This document shows, piece by piece, positions 23,685 through 31,696 of a DNA stretch of 45,004 bases (position 1 is the stretch's first letter; each line of letters opens with the position of its first letter). The stretch is from a virus. Position numbers and translations under genes: made by a program. The notes below the pieces were generated by a model. That model was not told the origin of the DNA, did no database searches, and saw nothing but the letters and a program-made list of their open reading frames with translations. The DNA is taken from positions 1 through 45,004 of IMG/VR virus record IMGVR_UViG_3300047317_000454; one strand, given 5' to 3'.

Positions 23685-23767
23685 GCGGTGGCGTGGAGCA
23701 TGCTCCACGTAGGTGGTACGTGGGTTGGCTCCTGTTCGTACCGTTCGGGTTCGATTCCCGGCACCGC
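23685..23767 (+). other. tRNA-like cloverleaf
   Basis: The 3' part is a convincing T-arm (stem 23745-23749 with 23757-23761, loop TTCGATT). It is followed directly by CACCGC (23762-23767), which pairs with GCGGTG (23685-23690) as an acceptor stem. Between them lie a perfect palindrome CGTGGAGCATGCTCCACG (23692-23709) in the D-arm place and a GGTACG/CGTACC stem (23715-23720 with 23737-23742) with a 16-nt loop in the anticodon place. No normal anticodon loop can be drawn, so this is a tRNA mimic, a degenerate tRNA or part of an attachment site rather than a standard tRNA. It ends 2 nt before the next start codon. Confidence 0.5.
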
Positions 23768-23769
23768 AC

Positions 23770-24723
23770 GTGATTACCAACGTGCACACCGAGGGCTTCC
23801 AGTCGCTCGATGACGTCGACCTCGAGTTGGGGAAGTTGACCGTCGTGGTCGGCGCATCCTCGTCAGGCAAGTCGGCACTGGTCCGGGCGATCCGGGGTGT
23901 CACCTCCAACGTCAGGGGCCCGGCCGCGATCCAGCGGGGCAAGAAGGCCCTGGACGTGTCCGTGCAGACCGACGACGGACCTCCGGTCAGGTTCACCAAG
24001 ACCAAGACCGCCAGCAGTTACACCGTCGGCTCCACCACGTTCACCAAGCTCGGTGTCAACGTCCCCGAGGCCGTCACGCAGGCCCTGGGGATGCCGCCAG
24101 GGCCCGACCTGCACCTGGCGGGACAGTTCGACCGCCCCTACCTGCTGGACGACTCAGGGGCCGCTGTAGCCCGGGTGCTGGGCGAACTCACCAACGTCTC
24201 CGTGATCTACGGGGCCGCACGGGAGGCCAACCGGATCAAGCTGTCGAAGTCCGGGGTGCTGGCGACACGGACGGCGGATCTCGCCAAGGCCGAGGCGGCG
24301 CTCGAAGCATTCGCCACCCTGGATGATGAGGTGGCCCGGCAGGAGTCCATCGAAGCCAACGTCCTGACTGCGTCAGGGGTGCAGTCCAGGCTCGGTGTTC
24401 TCACCGGGCTCCTGCTGGGCGTCAAGAACGCCTCCGAAGCCGTCGCCGCGCTGGTCCCTCCCACACGGCTGGACCCGGCCCGACAGGACCGCGCCACGGC
24501 GCTGTACGCCTCGCTGACGGACCTGCAGACACGGCTGGATGTCCTGGCTGTCCTGGACACGGACATCGTCGTCGTCGCCAGGAACCTCGAGGCCGACCGT
24601 GGGCTACTGACCCGGGTCGACGCCCTGCTGGTCACCGCGACCGCCGACTACCACGCCATCCAAGGCATCTGCCCCACGTGTGGTGCGGACCCTCAACACC
24701 AGCACCCGGAGCGTGTCGCATGA
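23770..24723 (+). CDS. SbcC/Rad50 N-terminal half: Walker A to zinc hook, 317 aa
   Basis: The GTG at 23770 is chosen because upstream codons in this frame run through the tRNA-like element. The start ITNVHTEGFQSLDDVDLELG and GASSSGKSAL (Walker A, residues 28-36) are typical of SMC/Rad50 N-lobes. A helical region with coiled-coil character follows, and the protein ends soon after CPTCGADPQ (Cys 301 and 304), the zinc-hook motif at the apex of Rad50. There is no Walker B or signature motif; those are in a separate gene at 28138. It would pair with the Mre11-like product of the next gene, which overlaps it. Confidence 0.8.
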   Translation: MITNVHTEGFQSLDDVDLELGKLTVVVGASSSGKSALVRAIRGVTSNVRGPAAIQRGKKALDVSVQTDDGPPVRFTKTKTASSYTVGSTTFTKLGVNVPEAVTQALGMPPGPDLHLAGQFDRPYLLDDSGAAVARVLGELTNVSVIYGAAREANRIKLSKSGVLATRTADLAKAEAALEAFATLDDEVARQESIEANVLTASGVQSRLGVLTGLLLGVKNASEAVAALVPPTRLDPARQDRATALYASLTDLQTRLDVLAVLDTDIVVVARNLEADRGLLTRVDALLVTATADYHAIQGICPTCGADPQHQHPERVA

Positions 24724-25661
24724 GCGTGCTTCTAATAGGTGATCTTCACCTCAGTGACAGACCGCCGTCGTCGTGCACGGACTCCTACCTGGACGACCTG
24801 TTCGACCTGCTCGAACAGACCGTTGTCCTGTCCGACGCCTACGAAGCCGTCGTGTGGGCGGGCGACATCTTCCACCACAAGGCCCCGTCCCGGACGTCGC
24901 ACCGGACGATCCAGCGGACCCTCGAACTCTGCAACGCCTACCCGGTGCCGCCGTTCATCGTCCCCGGCAACCACGACGTGCAGAACGACCGACTCGAGTC
25001 CGTGCTCGAGACGCAGCCGCTCGGGGTGCTGTTTCGGTCCGGGGCTGCACGTCCGCTGATCGGATGGAGCCCATACGTCCCGTACCTCTACGGGGTGCCG
25101 TGGCAGCAGGACTGGGCCAACCTGCCCAACGCCCTGGCCGAGTGGCCGGTCAGCCCGTGGGACGAGTCCGGGTGTCTCGTCGTGACGCACGCCCCGATCT
25201 TCCCGGTGTCGATGGCCCCGACGGTGTTCGAGTACACCCCGGCTGCCGACTGGGCTGCCGCGATGGGCGGCAAGGGCAACGTCTACTACGGGCACATCCA
25301 CGAGGCCCACGGCGTCTACACGGACGGTGGGGTGACGTTCGCCAACGTCGGTGCGCTCTCCCGGGGGTCGCTCCATGAGTACGACCTGACCCGGCAGGTG
25401 TCGGTGTGCTCCTGGTCCGCCAGCACCGGGTTCACGCCGATCCCGCTCAACGCCAAGCCCGCCTCTGAGGTGTTCCGGCTGGCCGAGATCATGGAGGCCA
25501 AGGACGCCACCGGCGCGTTCGATGACTTCCTGGCCAACGTCGGCAACTCGACCATCGCCATCACGTCCATCGAGTCCGTGATGGAAGAGGTCGGCCAACG
25601 GGACGGCGTCACCCCGCAACTCGCCGCCCTGGTCCGTGACCTGCTGGCTAACGTCGCCTGA
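24720..25661 (+). CDS. SbcD/Mre11-type metallophosphoesterase nuclease, 313 aa
   Basis: ATG overlaps the stop of the Rad50 N-half gene. All metal-binding motifs are present: IGDLHL (D8, H10), WAGDIFHH (D49), PGNHD (N84, H85, D86), VVTHAP and YYGHIHEAHG. The C-terminal 70 residues form a short cap/helical region for the ATPase. The complex would trim or cleave DNA ends and hairpins during recombination and repair, with ATP-dependent gating by the split Rad50. Confidence 0.9.
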   Translation: MSVLLIGDLHLSDRPPSSCTDSYLDDLFDLLEQTVVLSDAYEAVVWAGDIFHHKAPSRTSHRTIQRTLELCNAYPVPPFIVPGNHDVQNDRLESVLETQPLGVLFRSGAARPLIGWSPYVPYLYGVPWQQDWANLPNALAEWPVSPWDESGCLVVTHAPIFPVSMAPTVFEYTPAADWAAAMGGKGNVYYGHIHEAHGVYTDGGVTFANVGALSRGSLHEYDLTRQVSVCSWSASTGFTPIPLNAKPASEVFRLAEIMEAKDATGAFDDFLANVGNSTIAITSIESVMEEVGQRDGVTPQLAALVRDLLANVA

Positions 25662-26506
25662 TGGGCTACCCGCATCTCTTCCTGTCCTGGTCCCAGTTCC
25701 GCAACTGGGAGGACTGCCACATGCGGGTGAAGCTCGTCCGGGAGAAGAAGGGCCCCAAGCTCCGGGACATCCGGGTGTTCTTCCCCGGCACCGTCGTGGA
25801 CCGGGCGATGCGGGCCTGGCTGACCGACGACGACCGGAAGCCCGGTGGCATGGTCGAGTGCGTGGAGGCGGTCCTGGACCGGGAAGAGAAGACCGCACTC
25901 GAAACCAGCGACGGGATCGTCCGGTGGCGGCACGCCGACGACCGGGCACAGATCATCGAGACGTGCGGCCGGTTGCTGACCAACCTCGAACCGCTGCTCG
26001 ACAAGCTCGTGCTGCCGTTCGAGTTCGAGCCCGCCCACAACTTCCGGGTCAACGTGGGGCTGCCCGCACCTGACGGCTCCAACGCCGTCGTGACGCTGGT
26101 CGGTGAGATGGACCTGCTGGTCCGGTACCAACCCGAGCAGTGGGGGATCTACGACCTCAAGTTCACGGCGAACAAGGACTACTGGCGCAAGACGATCCAG
26201 CAGTTGACGTTCTACTCGATCGCCCGCCGGGCGATGTTCGGCGGGGAGACCGTGATCGCCGCGCTGCTGCAGCCGCTGATCGACCCTCCCTACGTCGCGG
26301 CCAAGGCCGACGTCGACTCGGAGGCACAGTTGTTCGCCCGGCTGATCCGCTACGCACACTCGCTGTGGCTGGGTGACTTCCCCTACGTCGAGTCGACCAA
26401 CGAGTGTTACTCCTGCTCGGTGCAGGACGCCTGCCCCCGGTTCCGGCCGGTCCCCGGCACCCACCGCTTGTCGTGGGGTCCCCCTGGTCCGTATCAGGAG
26501 TCGTGA
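25661..26506 (+). CDS. Cas4/AddB-like PD-(D/E)XK nuclease with Fe-S cluster, 281 aa
   Basis: ATG overlaps the upstream TGA. Core motifs: VGEMDLLV (E149, D151), YDLKFT (D165, K167) and QQLTFYSIA (Q181, Y185), the RecB-type nuclease signature. Cys 19 and the C-terminal set C249-x2-C252-x5-C258 match the Fe-S cluster ligands of Cas4 and AddB. No helicase domain is present. Expected role: 5' or 3' end resection together with the Mre11/Rad50 homologues. There is no CRISPR context, so a Cas4 adaptation role is not suggested. Confidence 0.82.
   Translation: MGYPHLFLSWSQFRNWEDCHMRVKLVREKKGPKLRDIRVFFPGTVVDRAMRAWLTDDDRKPGGMVECVEAVLDREEKTALETSDGIVRWRHADDRAQIIETCGRLLTNLEPLLDKLVLPFEFEPAHNFRVNVGLPAPDGSNAVVTLVGEMDLLVRYQPEQWGIYDLKFTANKDYWRKTIQQLTFYSIARRAMFGGETVIAALLQPLIDPPYVAAKADVDSEAQLFARLIRYAHSLWLGDFPYVESTNECYSCSVQDACPRFRPVPGTHRLSWGPPGPYQES
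26489..26496 (+). promoter_or_regulatory. CCGTATCA motif at the end of the nuclease gene
   Basis: CCGTATCA, with its first base 14 nt before a GTG (26503) that is in frame with the ATG at 26509. GGAG lies between motif and start, so this copy could serve either a leaderless or a short-leader mRNA. Confidence 0.45.
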
Positions 26507-26508
26507 CA

Positions 26509-26775
26509 ATGCCTACAGCCCCCGCCCTGGATCTCGCTGAGATCACCACGCGGTACAACACCCTCCAAACGCACAAGGCGCGGTTGGACCGGAACGTGAT
26601 CGCCTACGAGACGAAGTTGGAGACGTTGGAGGCCCAGCGCACCGCGCTGCTGGCCAAGCTCTCCGAGCAGTTCGGGGTCGACGGGATCGAGGCCGGGGTG
26701 GCGTTGGCCGTTAGTCTCCGGGCGCAGTTGACCGAACTGCTGACCGCTATCGAAGAGGAAGTTGGTTCCGGATGA
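26509..26775 (+). CDS. Small coiled-coil protein, 88 aa
   Basis: ATG 26509, or GTG 26503 if leaderless. Almost entirely heptad-like helix (ITTRYNTLQTHKARLDRNVI, then ETKLETLEAQRTALLAKLSE) followed by a helical pair around EQFGVDGIEAGVALAV. Its place between the two Rad50 halves suggests a third piece of that machine or a coiled-coil partner, but it has no ATPase motif. The stop overlaps the clamp gene start. Confidence 0.7.
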   Translation: MPTAPALDLAEITTRYNTLQTHKARLDRNVIAYETKLETLEAQRTALLAKLSEQFGVDGIEAGVALAVSLRAQLTELLTAIEEEVGSG

Positions 26776-27929
26776 CCCAGGTTGTCGACGCCGTGCCCGA
26801 CACGGCGCTCGGGGCAGCGTTCACGATCAAGCACAACGTCTTCTCGTTGGTGCTCCGCCGGGTGTACTCGGTGGTGCCGACCACGCAGGTGGCGCTCAAC
26901 GTGCTCCGGCAGTTCAAGATCGTGGCGGGCCCCGGCGGGCTGACGATCTCGGGCACCGACCTCGAACTCTCCGCCGTCGGCACGACGACGCTGGTCGACG
27001 TCGACCGGCCGGGGACGTTCTACGTCACGGCCCGGACGCTGATGGCCGCACTGGACAAGCTGACCGGCGAGACGATCTCCGTCGATGTCGGCGGTGGCCG
27101 GGCCCGGGTGTCCAGCGGGACGGGCAACGTTGACCTGGCGCTCTACGCCAACGACGACTTCCCGGTGTTCCCCGACCTGTCCGACGTCTCGATGTCCGCC
27201 ATCGACCGGGAGAAGTTCCTCGCCGGGGTCGACTCGGTGTATCGGGCTGCCTCGCAGGAGGTGACCCGTGCGAACCTGATGATGGTCAGCGTGGCCGACG
27301 GCCGGATGACGGCTTGCGACAACGCACGGCTGCATCAGTTCGTGCTCGGTGACGACTTCCCGGTGTCCCTGCAGATCCCGATCAAGGCGCTGGACTCGAA
27401 GCGGCTCCCGGCCCTGTTGCGGGACGACTCGCTCAAGACGGTGCAGGTCGGTGAGACCAAGAACCACCTCGTGTTCCGGCTGGGCACGTTCATCTTCCTG
27501 GCGTCGAAGGTGACGGCCAAGTACCCGGACGTCGAGTCGCTGCTGCTGGTCCCGGCGCGCACCGAGAACCATCACCAGATGACCGTGGACCGTGATGACC
27601 TGGCCAGAGCGATCTCCCTGGTGACGGTGACCGCCGACACGGACACCTCCGCGATCAAGCTCGACATCTCCGGCACGACGCTGACCCTCCGATCGAAGAA
27701 CAAGGAGGGGGAGCGGGCCGAGTACTCCGTCACCGTGGGCTGGACCGGGTCGCCCCGGAGCCTCGTCGTCAACTACGGGTTCCTCTCCGACATGGTGGCG
27801 TCGTCGGAGGCCAAGGTGCTCAAGTTCCTGATCGGGGACGACACCAAGACGGCCAAGCGCCCCCTGCTGCTCGAGGACTCCAAGGCCGGGTTCACCGGCC
27901 TCATCCAGCAGATGCGGGTCGAGGTATGA
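26772..27929 (+). CDS. dnaN: DNA polymerase III beta (sliding clamp) homologue, 385 aa
   Basis: ATG overlaps the previous stop (ATGA). Length equals bacterial DnaN, with three repeated clamp domains. Recognisable segments are LRRVYSVVPTTQVALNVLRQ, ISGTDLELSAVGT, YANDDFPVFPDL, SVADGRMTACDNARLHQF, KVTAKYPDVESLL and the C-terminal VNYGFLSDMVASSEA. It forms a dimeric ring tethering DNA polymerase to DNA. Loader subunits are encoded at 10353, 12042 and 32282. Confidence 0.92.
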   Translation: MTQVVDAVPDTALGAAFTIKHNVFSLVLRRVYSVVPTTQVALNVLRQFKIVAGPGGLTISGTDLELSAVGTTTLVDVDRPGTFYVTARTLMAALDKLTGETISVDVGGGRARVSSGTGNVDLALYANDDFPVFPDLSDVSMSAIDREKFLAGVDSVYRAASQEVTRANLMMVSVADGRMTACDNARLHQFVLGDDFPVSLQIPIKALDSKRLPALLRDDSLKTVQVGETKNHLVFRLGTFIFLASKVTAKYPDVESLLLVPARTENHHQMTVDRDDLARAISLVTVTADTDTSAIKLDISGTTLTLRSKNKEGERAEYSVTVGWTGSPRSLVVNYGFLSDMVASSEAKVLKFLIGDDTKTAKRPLLLEDSKAGFTGLIQQMRVEV

Positions 27930-28141
27930 AGCCCGTCCACCTCCCCTACGAGCAACTGGCCGACATCTTGCTCGACATGTCGGAGCGGGTCCGGGCCGGT
28001 GACTCCTGGGAGGGGCACATCCAATACCTGGCCGACTACGACAACGACGGCGAACAGCGCCCGCTGGTGGAGGCTGCCTACCGGATCGGCAACAGCAACG
28101 GCAGCCAGGGCGGCATGCGGACCGTTGGTGATCTCGTATGA
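27926..28141 (+). CDS. Hypothetical protein, 71 aa
   Basis: Overlaps the clamp stop (ATGA) and the next start. Acidic, with a helical front (YEQLADILLDMSERVRAGDS) and an EGHIQYL segment. No family recognised; coupled between the clamp and the Rad50 C-half. Confidence 0.6.
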   Translation: MKPVHLPYEQLADILLDMSERVRAGDSWEGHIQYLADYDNDGEQRPLVEAAYRIGNSNGSQGGMRTVGDLV

Positions 28142-28791
28142 CCAGCACCCTCGAGCAGATCCAGTACACCGTCACCCAACGGCGACGGGACGTCGACTGG
28201 AAGGTGATGCAGCGGAAGGTGGCGACCGACAGCGTCGCCGCGCTGACCGCCGAGGTCGCCACCCTCAAGGCCGGGATCGAGTTGCACACCCAGGCAGCCG
28301 GGCTGCTCAACACCATCGGTGACGAGCGGCAGAACGCTGTGCAGCAGCAGATCGAGGGCATCGTCACCCAGGGGCTGCAGTTGGTGTTCGGGGATGAGTT
28401 GTCCTTCCACCTCGTGTCGTCGGTGCGCTCGAATGCCGCTCAGATCGACTTCATCGTCAGGACGACGTTCCCGGACGGGTCGATCCTCGATACCCCCGTG
28501 ATGGACGCGCGTGGGGGCGGCGTTGCGGCCGTGGTCGGGTTCCTGCTCCGGTTCACGCTGGTGATGCTGACGCCCGGGGCCCGGAAGTTCCTGGTGCTGG
28601 ATGAGTTCGCCGCCCAGGTGTCCGCCGAATATGAACCACGACTGGCCGAGTTCCTCCGCTCGATCGTGGACAAGACGGACGCACAGATCCTGATGATTAC
28701 GCACTCGGACGCCTTCGGGGATGTGGCCGACCGTGTCTACCGGTTCAAGCTCGACGCACAGGGCCGCACTCAGGTAACGAAGGAAGCCTGA
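28138..28791 (+). CDS. SbcC/Rad50 C-terminal half: signature, Walker B, H-loop, 217 aa
   Basis: ATG overlaps the upstream stop. The N-terminal 80 residues are coiled-coil (VAALTAEVATLKAGIELHTQ). The ATPase C-lobe follows: signature-like ARGGGVAAVVG (G126-G128), Walker B with catalytic acid FLVLDEFAA (D155, E156) and H-loop LMITHSD (H189). There is no Walker A. It therefore complements the N-half encoded at 23770, which has Walker A and hook but none of these. Together they would form one Rad50-type ATP-binding head. Confidence 0.82.
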   Translation: MTSTLEQIQYTVTQRRRDVDWKVMQRKVATDSVAALTAEVATLKAGIELHTQAAGLLNTIGDERQNAVQQQIEGIVTQGLQLVFGDELSFHLVSSVRSNAAQIDFIVRTTFPDGSILDTPVMDARGGGVAAVVGFLLRFTLVMLTPGARKFLVLDEFAAQVSAEYEPRLAEFLRSIVDKTDAQILMITHSDAFGDVADRVYRFKLDAQGRTQVTKEA

Positions 28792-28822: not shown

Positions 28823-31696
28823 ATGACCCAGCGCACGCCCCAGCAGATCACCGAGTGGTTCGACGCCAATCAGCATCGGTTCGACGGCCCGACCCAGTAC
28901 CTAGGCACCGAGCCCAATGCGTGGGCCAAGCCGTGGGACGACAACCCGACCCGGCTGCTCATCACGGCGTCGTGGCCGTACAACGCGGCGGCGGGCAACC
29001 AGTCGATCCCTGCCGTGTACAAGACGGTCAACCTCGGGGACGGGCTGCTCGCGGACCGGTACTACCTCCCGGCCACGCCCCGGGACCTCAAGCTGTTCGA
29101 GTCCAACGCCATTCCGATGTTCGGAATCGAGTCCAAGCATGCTGCGATGGACTTCGATGTGGTGTCGACGTCGATCAGCTATTCGGTGCTGATAATGAGC
29201 TTTCACAAGCTGCTCGGAGTATCGGGAATCCCGGGTTCCCGGAAGGTCAGGGAACAGACCCCCGAAGCCTTCCCCATGGTGATGATCGGAGGCCAGATCT
29301 ATGCCAATCCGGAAAGTGTCGCCGGGATCGCGGACGTCATCTTCCTCGGTGAGTGCGAGGATGAGCCTGGGAATCCTGGATTACGCGCAGTTCTCGACCG
29401 TATTACCGCCTTCAAGTCCTCCGGATTGTGGACTGCTGACCGTGTGGCCTGTTACGAAGCTCTCGCACGCGAGTTCAACTTCCTCTACTTCCCCCGCTTC
29501 GTAGACGTCGAATATGCCTACATCGACCGAGGATTGGAGCACCCCTCCAAGCAGGTTGTCGGCTATCGAGCAGTCCTGTCGGGCATGGCGATGCCTTTCG
29601 TCAAACGATTCGTGCATGATCTGGACGCGATACCGCCGCTCGATGACCCGCCGTTGCTGTATGCGAATGTGAGCATGGGTGCGGGCGATCTCGAGGTCGG
29701 CCGGGGCTGCCCGGCGTGGTGCTCGTTCTGTGCCCTGACCTACCGCCAGAAGCCTTATCGGCAGCGGTCGGTCAAGTACGTCACCGACATGGCGCTCGGG
29801 GTGCGGGACAACATGGGGGCGTCCCGGCTGTCGCCGTTCGCCCCGGATACCCCGATGCACACCCAGAAGAAGCAACTCGTCGCATCCCTGGTCCAGAACG
29901 TCTCCGACGAGGTCGACTCCCTGGCGATGCGGGTGGACGACTTCACCGCCGACGACGCCTACATCACGCTGCAGGTCGGGTCCGGCCTGGACGATGTCAC
30001 CCTGGGGCTCGAGGGCAACTCCCAGCGGATGCGGGACCTTGTCGGCAAGGGCCTGACCGATGCCGCCGTGGTGGAGGCGGTCCAGAAGGGGATCACTGCG
30101 GGGATCAAGAAGTTCAAGCTGTTTATGATCTCCGACCTGCCCGGCGAGGACGCCGGTGACGTGATGAAGATCGTCAAGCTGGGCTACGCCCTGGCGGCGG
30201 TGCGGGACAACTCCGGGGTGCCGAACGTCCGTATCCAGTTCTCCTGGACGCCGCTGCTGATCGAGGCCGGGACCCCGTTCCAGTGGTTCGCACCCACCCC
30301 GAAGGTCAGCAAGGAACTACTGGACGTGTGGGAAGAGTTCCGGAAGATCGGCGTCGAGTACAAGGTCGGGGCCAAGGCCGAGCCCAACAAGACGGCGTTC
30401 TTCCAGTTGTGCCAGCGGGCCTCCCGGGAGGTCGGGGACGCCATCACCTCCTGGCTCGAGGACATTCAGCAGGCGTGCTGGGGCGGGGTGCCCCGGGACG
30501 CCAAGGAGAAGCTGACCGAGAAGCTGGTCGAGTTCGGCTTCCTCAACGGCTTCGATGACTGCTTCGATGAGCGAACGCTGATCGACATGTTCGGTTGGGA
30601 GTTCATCGACCAGGGCGTGTCCATCGACCTGCTGTGGCGGACGTTCGTGTCGATGCGGGAGTTCGCGGAGCAGACCGATTCCATCTCGTATGAGGCCACC
30701 CTCGAACCCGGGTACATGGGCAACGAGTGGCTGCAGCGGTGCGACGAAGCCTGCATGGGCCGGTCGTGTGGGGTGTGCTCCGCCGACGACCTCAAGATCC
30801 GCCGGGCCTACGTGGTGGCCGGGAGGTCCGACGACGTCGACCTGGACAAGATCAAGCCCATCGACCAGTCCACCGTGGCCTGCAAGATCCGGGCGAAGCT
30901 CATCAAGCCCGACGACACCCGGCTCGTGGAGAACGACCACTGGCGCTTCGCCGTCCGGCGTGCCGCGTTCCGGGCCGCGACCAAGCTGGGGACGCCGTAC
31001 ACGATCGCCAAGCGGACCATCCGGTTCGCCTCCGACGTGATCGTGCTCAAGGACTGGACGTCCGGGGTGGACTACGTCGAGTTCGGCATGACCGACCGGC
31101 TCGGCCCCGGGGACGCCGAGACATACATCTCATGTATGTCTGATGAGTTGGCCAAGTGGCTGACTCTGTCGACGCTGCCCGACGACTACGCGATCCTGCC
31201 TCCGTACGGCAAGACCATCACCAGCGACATCGACCTCTCGCTCTACGAGCTAGAGGTTGCCGATGACTACACCGCCATACGGACGCACTTGGACCACTGG
31301 GAGGCATCTGAGAGCGTCCGTATGGTCCTACGGAACCCGTCCGGGTACTTCGGGGCCGCTGCGGAGGAAGTCAACGCGAAGGACTACGTGGACGGCATGT
31401 GGCTCAAGGCCGAGGGCTCCCGGCTGCTGCTCAAGATGCTGCTCCGGGGACGGCCGACGCCCTACAACATCCATCAGGTGCTGACCGGCAAGCCGTCGAT
31501 GATCGAGGCCACGGCCAAGCCCGCCGTCCGGCTGGGGATCTTCCTCGGGGTGGACGGGGAGCAACTGGACTGGTTCCGGCCGAACTGCCAGGTGTGCGGG
31601 AATCAGATCCCCACCACCCTGACCGACCGTCCATTCCACGGCGAACTGTGCCCTCAGTGTGCGGATTCCGTTGCGGTGGCGACTGTCTCGGACTAG
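28823..31696 (+). CDS. B12-binding-like radical SAM protein, 957 aa
   Basis: ATG with GGAGGGAGG upstream. Residues about 45-180 resemble a cobalamin-binding domain (FDVVSTSISYSVLIMSFHKL, then MVMIGGQIYANPESVAGIAD, FLGECED). The radical SAM cluster motif is C296-x3-C300-x2-C303 (RGCPAWCSFC). The barrel continues with LGLEGNSQRMRDLVGKGLT and FKLFMISDLPGED, as in the YgiQ/TIGR03960-type group. Residues about 640-665 hold a second Cys cluster (CDEACMGRSCGVCS). Residues about 700-800 may correspond to the DUF2344 domain often fused to that group, and the end carries CQVCG...CPQC. The reaction is unknown; modification of a nucleic acid or a protein is possible. Confidence 0.8.
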   Translation: MTQRTPQQITEWFDANQHRFDGPTQYLGTEPNAWAKPWDDNPTRLLITASWPYNAAAGNQSIPAVYKTVNLGDGLLADRYYLPATPRDLKLFESNAIPMFGIESKHAAMDFDVVSTSISYSVLIMSFHKLLGVSGIPGSRKVREQTPEAFPMVMIGGQIYANPESVAGIADVIFLGECEDEPGNPGLRAVLDRITAFKSSGLWTADRVACYEALAREFNFLYFPRFVDVEYAYIDRGLEHPSKQVVGYRAVLSGMAMPFVKRFVHDLDAIPPLDDPPLLYANVSMGAGDLEVGRGCPAWCSFCALTYRQKPYRQRSVKYVTDMALGVRDNMGASRLSPFAPDTPMHTQKKQLVASLVQNVSDEVDSLAMRVDDFTADDAYITLQVGSGLDDVTLGLEGNSQRMRDLVGKGLTDAAVVEAVQKGITAGIKKFKLFMISDLPGEDAGDVMKIVKLGYALAAVRDNSGVPNVRIQFSWTPLLIEAGTPFQWFAPTPKVSKELLDVWEEFRKIGVEYKVGAKAEPNKTAFFQLCQRASREVGDAITSWLEDIQQACWGGVPRDAKEKLTEKLVEFGFLNGFDDCFDERTLIDMFGWEFIDQGVSIDLLWRTFVSMREFAEQTDSISYEATLEPGYMGNEWLQRCDEACMGRSCGVCSADDLKIRRAYVVAGRSDDVDLDKIKPIDQSTVACKIRAKLIKPDDTRLVENDHWRFAVRRAAFRAATKLGTPYTIAKRTIRFASDVIVLKDWTSGVDYVEFGMTDRLGPGDAETYISCMSDELAKWLTLSTLPDDYAILPPYGKTITSDIDLSLYELEVADDYTAIRTHLDHWEASESVRMVLRNPSGYFGAAAEEVNAKDYVDGMWLKAEGSRLLLKMLLRGRPTPYNIHQVLTGKPSMIEATAKPAVRLGIFLGVDGEQLDWFRPNCQVCGNQIPTTLTDRPFHGELCPQCADSVAVATVSD

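Follow-up and report, generated by a model that had tools for sequence, protein, structure and literature searches.

Few DNA-repair motors are as conserved as Rad50, whose function is explained by a single chain folded back on itself at a zinc hook. For the crystals 1f2u, 1ii8 and 3qkr, Rad50 was deliberately made in two pieces that together constitute one ATPase head. Here we describe the 45-kb viral contig IMGVR_UViG_3300047317_000454 (positions 1–45,004, all of which is referred to as the window), in which two separate genes encode what is very probably a phage two-subunit Rad50 working with the adjacent Mre11. One gene (the N-half) specifies Walker A, a helical arm and a terminal CPTC motif, and the other (the C-half) a short coil followed by Walker B and the H-loop. 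The window also carries the tailed-phage genes portal, terminase, tail-collar, DNA polymerase A, UvsX/RecA and clamp loader.

The phage pair shares with Rad50/SbcC and Mre11/SbcD the homologous head lobes, the Walker A, Q-loop, Walker B and H-loop motifs, one CxxC per protomer and an adjoining Mre11. It differs from Rad50/SbcC in having two genes with the break just past the hook, a short C coil of near-constant length, a modular N arm and a signature serine that is mostly replaced. The split system is homologous to Rad50 and probably functions in much the same way. The artificially split Pyrococcus Rad50 (1F2T/1F2U, 1II8, 3QKR) likewise has a head assembled from two chains, one per lobe, and the phage halves match its A and B chains, respectively; however, that split was made for crystallography and is without full arms or hook, whereas the phage split is natural and the hook is on the N chain. 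The Mre11-Rad50 of phage T4, gp46/gp47 (compare also PHROG 77/100), acts in recombination-dependent replication (PMC3175470). T4 gp46 is one chain, while the split families fall into other PHROGs, 16465 and 15167.

Jumbo phages likewise have core enzymes as separate lobes, in their case other enzymes, RNA polymerase and DNA polymerase III alpha; the same survey gives SbcC/SbcD as nearly universal in them, and a split SbcC is not reported in the passages retrieved from it (PMC7824862). A literature search for split, permuted or two-gene Rad50/SbcC, with subscription papers and preprints outside its scope, returned nothing relevant. The two-gene phage Rad50 arrangement is shared by over 80 distinct gene clusters and seems to be previously undescribed.

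Two Rad50 genes and their conservation

The N-half open reading frame (ORF) reads MITNVHTEGFQS...GASSSGKS...QFD...ICPTCGADPQHQHPERVA-stop, the stop codon falling 13 residues past the second hook Cys, and matches PHROG 16465 (E 1e-20). The C-half ORF has a coil at its start and continues ...DARGGGVAAVVGFLLR...FLVLDEF...ILMITHSD... (coordinates are given in Table 1). The original prediction, made from the sequence of the window, was that Rad50 is split here at the zinc hook, and both ORFs are as it claimed: Walker A and a CPTC close to the stop lie in the N-half, Walker B and the H-loop lie in the C-half, and neither half carries the motifs of the other. No second Rad50-like ORF was found within the window, where phrog_77 (SbcC) matches the C-half region only.

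The two-subunit Rad50 is conserved. When viral contigs were scanned with small seed alignments, ∼139 loci were obtained, and a Firmicutes profile gave 14 loci from bacterial genomes and metagenome-assembled genomes (Brevibacillus, Paenibacillus, Thermoactinomyces and others). Once redundancy is removed, N and C are separate genes at 81 loci. The two genes are on the same strand in every one of these, Mre11 is near the pair in 80, and the exact order of the window (N, Mre11, Cas4-like nuclease, coiled-coil protein, clamp, C) is found in 32. The median distance from N to C is 3.4 kb, mostly with other genes between. Cultured phages with the split pair are Magritte (gp155, gp2) and Tunturi_5 (gp181, gp14), where N and C lie tens of kb apart, and vB_BboS-125 (gp32, gp35) and Mvi-JY20. 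All 75 aligned N-halves match PHROG 16465, and all 69 aligned C-halves match PHROG 15167; these two phage families, now called just ‘exonuclease’ and ‘ATPase’, can be given better names.

Both lobes in one polypeptide, as in Rad50 itself, were not found in the 81 loci, where they are encoded by separate genes. Among 53 whole phage records, all matched the C profile, each through a single real copy, and 50 matched the N profile. A full-length Rad50 elsewhere, which the original prediction named as the finding that would count against it, was looked for in these 53 other records (up to 485 kb): none has a single ORF with both SbcC segments, and the SbcC family model matches half-segments only.

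Some loci have features of their own. In cyanophage Mvi-JY20 (L007 5617–8444), the N, Mre11, coiled-coil and C genes are contiguous and overlapping, and every one is annotated as hypothetical. Segments of ∼350–400 extra residues occur in two N-halves (L033 3277–5523 and L056 2644–4764), where they sit in or near the Walker A region, and in two Mre11 proteins (L059 3500–5827 and L113 11242–13476). All four segments are likely candidates for inteins.

Head, hook and arm

Sequence profiles pair each half with its own chain of the split Rad50 crystals, N with A and C with B. The N-half matches the Rad50 N chains 3qkr_A and 1ii8_A (E 5e-16), and the best matches of the C-half are 3qkr_B (E 3e-18), 1ii8_B and 1f2t_B. 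AlphaFold2 models gave a pLDDT (predicted local distance difference test) of 86.7 for the N-half, with an arm pTM (predicted template modelling score) of 0.47, and a pLDDT of 96.3 and pTM of 0.78 for the C-half. Foldseek searches with the N model returned 9a9j_A, 3av0 and 1f2u as best matches, and also 1f2u_A/C, 1ii8_A and 3qkr_A; with the C model they returned 9a9j_B, 5h66_B, 1ii8_B, 1f2u_B/D and 3qkr_B. The models thus point strongly to the N and C halves forming one ATP-binding cassette (ABC) head.

The C-half had also been credited with the ABC signature, and this part of the claim stands less well than Walker B and the H-loop. The serine-containing LSGGE of Rad50 was not found; the window has ARGGG, and in the alignment of 69 C-halves the position of the signature serine is occupied by F in 21, R in 14, Y in 12 and S in 5, the window having the Arg.

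The N-halves of phages and prophages typically end in a CxxC, nearly always CPxC: 111 of 114 distinct complete sequences have it, followed by a median of 10 residues (range 2–28). Such a frequency is far beyond chance. In alignment A5, which comprises 75 N-half rows and excludes two hookless relatives, C301, P302 and C304 are invariant, on par with the G and K of Walker A. The C-half of the window contains no Cys at all, in keeping with the predicted lack of a matching Cys pair, and no C-half has a CxxC at the hook position (in two C ORFs the pattern occurs at other sites, in one case within an upstream extension). The original prediction concluded that the hook would need a different dimerisation chemistry. 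This does not follow: ordinary Rad50 also has one CxxC per protomer, and two CxxC hold one zinc (PMC4494100), so that two N-halves would be enough and no special chemistry is required. The Pfam Rad50 zinc-hook model matches only 2 of the 75 N-halves, which may be due to length, the second strand being missing.

In its arm the pair departs from the idea that it equals one Rad50 cut at the hook apex. The division does fall just after the hook, but most of the descending coil seems to be missing, since the C-half keeps one helix whose length ignores that of the N-arm. In the C-half model a single starting helix (residues 2–84) runs into the head, and by analogy some 50–55 residues of it would lie outside the head. 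Its length is near constant (Walker B at 146 ± 8), with no correlation between Walker B position and N-arm length (rho 0.008, n = 51). The N-arm lengths are stepped, at ∼152, 195, 240 and 289 residues, with a best period of 45 (resultant 0.757; none of 2000 smoothed resamples was equally periodic). Prolines are clustered at ∼90, 135 and 180, and each step adds one cluster. Taken with the constant C coil, these steps and clusters indicate that the N-arm grows by single helix-and-turn modules while the C-half is unchanged.

We tentatively suggest that this Rad50 may keep its hook with no Rad50 coiled coil: the N-subunit alone may build a self-supporting hook arm to which helix modules are added singly, with the C-subunit a detachable ATPase half, so that the DNA-holding ring could be opened or rebuilt by subunit exchange and not only by ATP hydrolysis. 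A somewhat more doubtful extension of the two-subunit Rad50, compatible with it, is a three-part Rad50 in which a small coiled-coil protein acts as the missing descending coil or as another arm partner. A related protein of 75–130 aa, with two ∼40-residue helices and a conserved IDPD turn, is encoded in 51 of the 81 loci, typically between N and C, and the N-arm does exceed the C-half coil in length. Yet this protein has a near-constant length against the stepped N-arm, it was undetected in 30 of the 81 loci (detection of short coils being weak), and coil similarity by itself is poor evidence.

Natural fusions and the proposed mechanism

In two metagenomic phages the halves are fused in one ORF (L143 3516–5498 and L145 9278–11311) with the C-lobe first, then the N-lobe, the arm and the CxxC. 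This is a circular permutation, in which head is joined to head and the break stays at the hook. The fusion is under purifying selection, junction included (L143 versus L145, dN/dS 0.144/0.56 overall and 0.057/1.019 at the junction). Since two phages carry this selected C-to-N fusion, the halves belong together. A fused version among relatives, which the original prediction proposed to look for, exists in permuted form, but not as a one-gene SbcC in the 53 records. A natural permuted Rad50 fusion is now available.

Fusions of Mre11 to the N-half were found at L025 (7093–9216) and L028 (6669–8978), both with the C gene downstream, which in L028 is a separate gene ∼1 kb away. L028 appears to be Bacillus phage 0305phi8-36. 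Similar Mre11-Rad50 fusions are those of Mimivirus (R555) and Bacillus phage 0305phi8-36, and the latter was noted in 2011 to be without one SbcC P-loop segment (PMC3175470). If L028 is indeed this phage, the separate C gene would supply the P-loop segment absent from the fusion, a possible explanation for the 2011 report.

The fusions bear on whether the halves share a head at all. Each protein could instead act alone or with another partner; for example, a RecF-like ATPase could exist beside a separate hook protein. In favour of this, the N model has RecF among its best structural matches, and the N and C genes of Magritte are unlinked. We consider this improbable, because each half is only part of an ATP site, N and C co-occur in the same records, mostly as one gene each, the permuted ORFs are under selection, and the two proteins match complementary chains of the same crystals. 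Even less probable is that the halves are rejoined, through trans-splicing of the proteins or some event during translation or in the transcript, to give an ordinary mature Rad50. Phages are known to have split inteins, but there is no space for their pieces here, with so few residues (2–28) after the CxxC and a C-half that opens directly in coil; moreover, the genes are generally kilobases apart, and tens of kb in Magritte and Tunturi_5, and a rejoined chain would still be without most of the descending coil. A lone split gene in a metagenome contig is often an artefact, but a frameshift, assembly error or recent decay can be discounted here, as five intact genes separate the halves and the split recurs with intact ORFs in 81 distinct loci, including the four cultured phages and bacterial genomes.

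Some observations weigh against the two-subunit Rad50 as we propose it. We infer the N:C complex from structure predictions of single chains. The signature serine, an ATP contact in Rad50, is replaced in most relatives. In yeast (S1205R) and Pyrococcus (S793R) Rad50, the change to Arg abolishes dimerisation and ATP hydrolysis (PMC7049730), and ATP engagement in the split protein must therefore differ or be weak. Hookless N-halves, with a different terminal segment, exist in Magritte (L003 6001–7053) and two relatives, L097 (9989–11074) and L140 (10001–11062). As to the shape of the arm, most matches past the head have a root-mean-square deviation >20 Å in the structural alignment, and the arm pTM is low (0.47). 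Because Walker A, the Walker B Glu, the Q-loop and the H-loop are kept, the split Rad50 is nevertheless expected, judging by these motifs, to turn over ATP with an altered engagement step.

In the mechanism proposed for the two-subunit Rad50, the N and C subunits would each contribute one lobe to a shared ABC-type head, with each ATP site taking its Walker A and Q-loop from N and its Walker B and H-loop from C in a Rad50-like way. Two N:C heads would sit on one Mre11 dimer, the putative nuclease, and DNA ends would be processed or held in recombination-dependent phage replication. The CPxC motifs of two N-subunits would bind zinc as an ordinary hook. The hook arm would be made by the N-subunit, from what appear to be repeated single-helix modules of ∼45 residues, and a full descending C coil would not be needed. 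The output of N:C:Mre11 may feed the UvsX/RecA, clamp and polymerase encoded nearby. With UvsX/RecA, Pol A, clamp, clamp loader and a RecB-like nuclease as neighbours, the biological role may by analogy be end resection for recombination-dependent replication, like that of T4 gp46/gp47. A widespread lineage that seems to do without the fold-back separates head, arm and hook, so that which connection matters becomes testable.

Genes between and around the halves

The features of the locus are collected in Table 1. Mre11, the Cas4-like nuclease, the coiled-coil protein and the sliding clamp were all expected between the halves and are all present, together with a further small ORF. The small coiled-coil family is mostly encoded directly upstream of the clamp or the C-half, and its match in the window is weak (33 bits).

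Table 1. Positions of the two Rad50 halves, their motifs and the intervening genes in the window
Feature	Position	Strand	Details
N-half, predicted Rad50 N-subunit: ABC-head N-lobe, helical arm, C-terminal hook	23770..24723	+	317 aa, GTG start
Walker A GASSSGKS (G28 to S35)	23851..23874	+	G28 and K34 invariant in 75/75 aligned N-halves
Q-loop Gln119	24124..24126	+	Conserved in 74/75 aligned N-halves
Helical arm, residues 144–298	24199..24663	+	Helices 144–180, 184–228, 236–298 (DSSP on model)
CPTC zinc-hook motif, C301–C304	24670..24681	+	CPxC in 75/75 rows of alignment A5
Mre11/SbcD-like nuclease	24720..25661	+	Metallophos E 2e-11; overlaps N-half stop
PD-(D/E)XK (Cas4/RecB-like) nuclease	25661..26506	+	PF12705 E 8e-13; family in 41/81 loci
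Small coiled-coil protein, candidate third component	26509..26775	+	88 aa; family in 51/81 loci
DNA polymerase III beta-type sliding clamp	26772..27929	+	PHROG 947 E 4e-45
71-aa ORF	27926..28141	+	No family match; absent from the original prediction
C-half, predicted Rad50 C-subunit: short coil and ABC-head C-lobe	28138..28791	+	217 aa; PHROG 15167 E 7e-30
Signature region ARGGG (canonical LSGGE)	28507..28521	+	Profile alignment and column counts
Walker B Asp155-Glu156 (LVLDE)	28600..28605	+	D155 in 69/69, E156 in 68/69 aligned C-halves
H-loop His189	28702..28704	+	68/69 aligned C-halves

Two further observations concern the flanks of the pair. Immediately 5′ of the N-half start, at window 23685–23767, is a tRNA-like sequence whose T-arm, CGGGTTCGATTCCCG, is perfect and whose acceptor ends match (GCGGTG/CACCGC); ARAGORN called no tRNA in it, and Rfam gave a sub-threshold tRNA-Sec match only. 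Directly after the C-half, in the replication region, a 957-aa radical SAM protein (Radical_SAM_N2, E 2.5e-20) is encoded at window 28823–31696.

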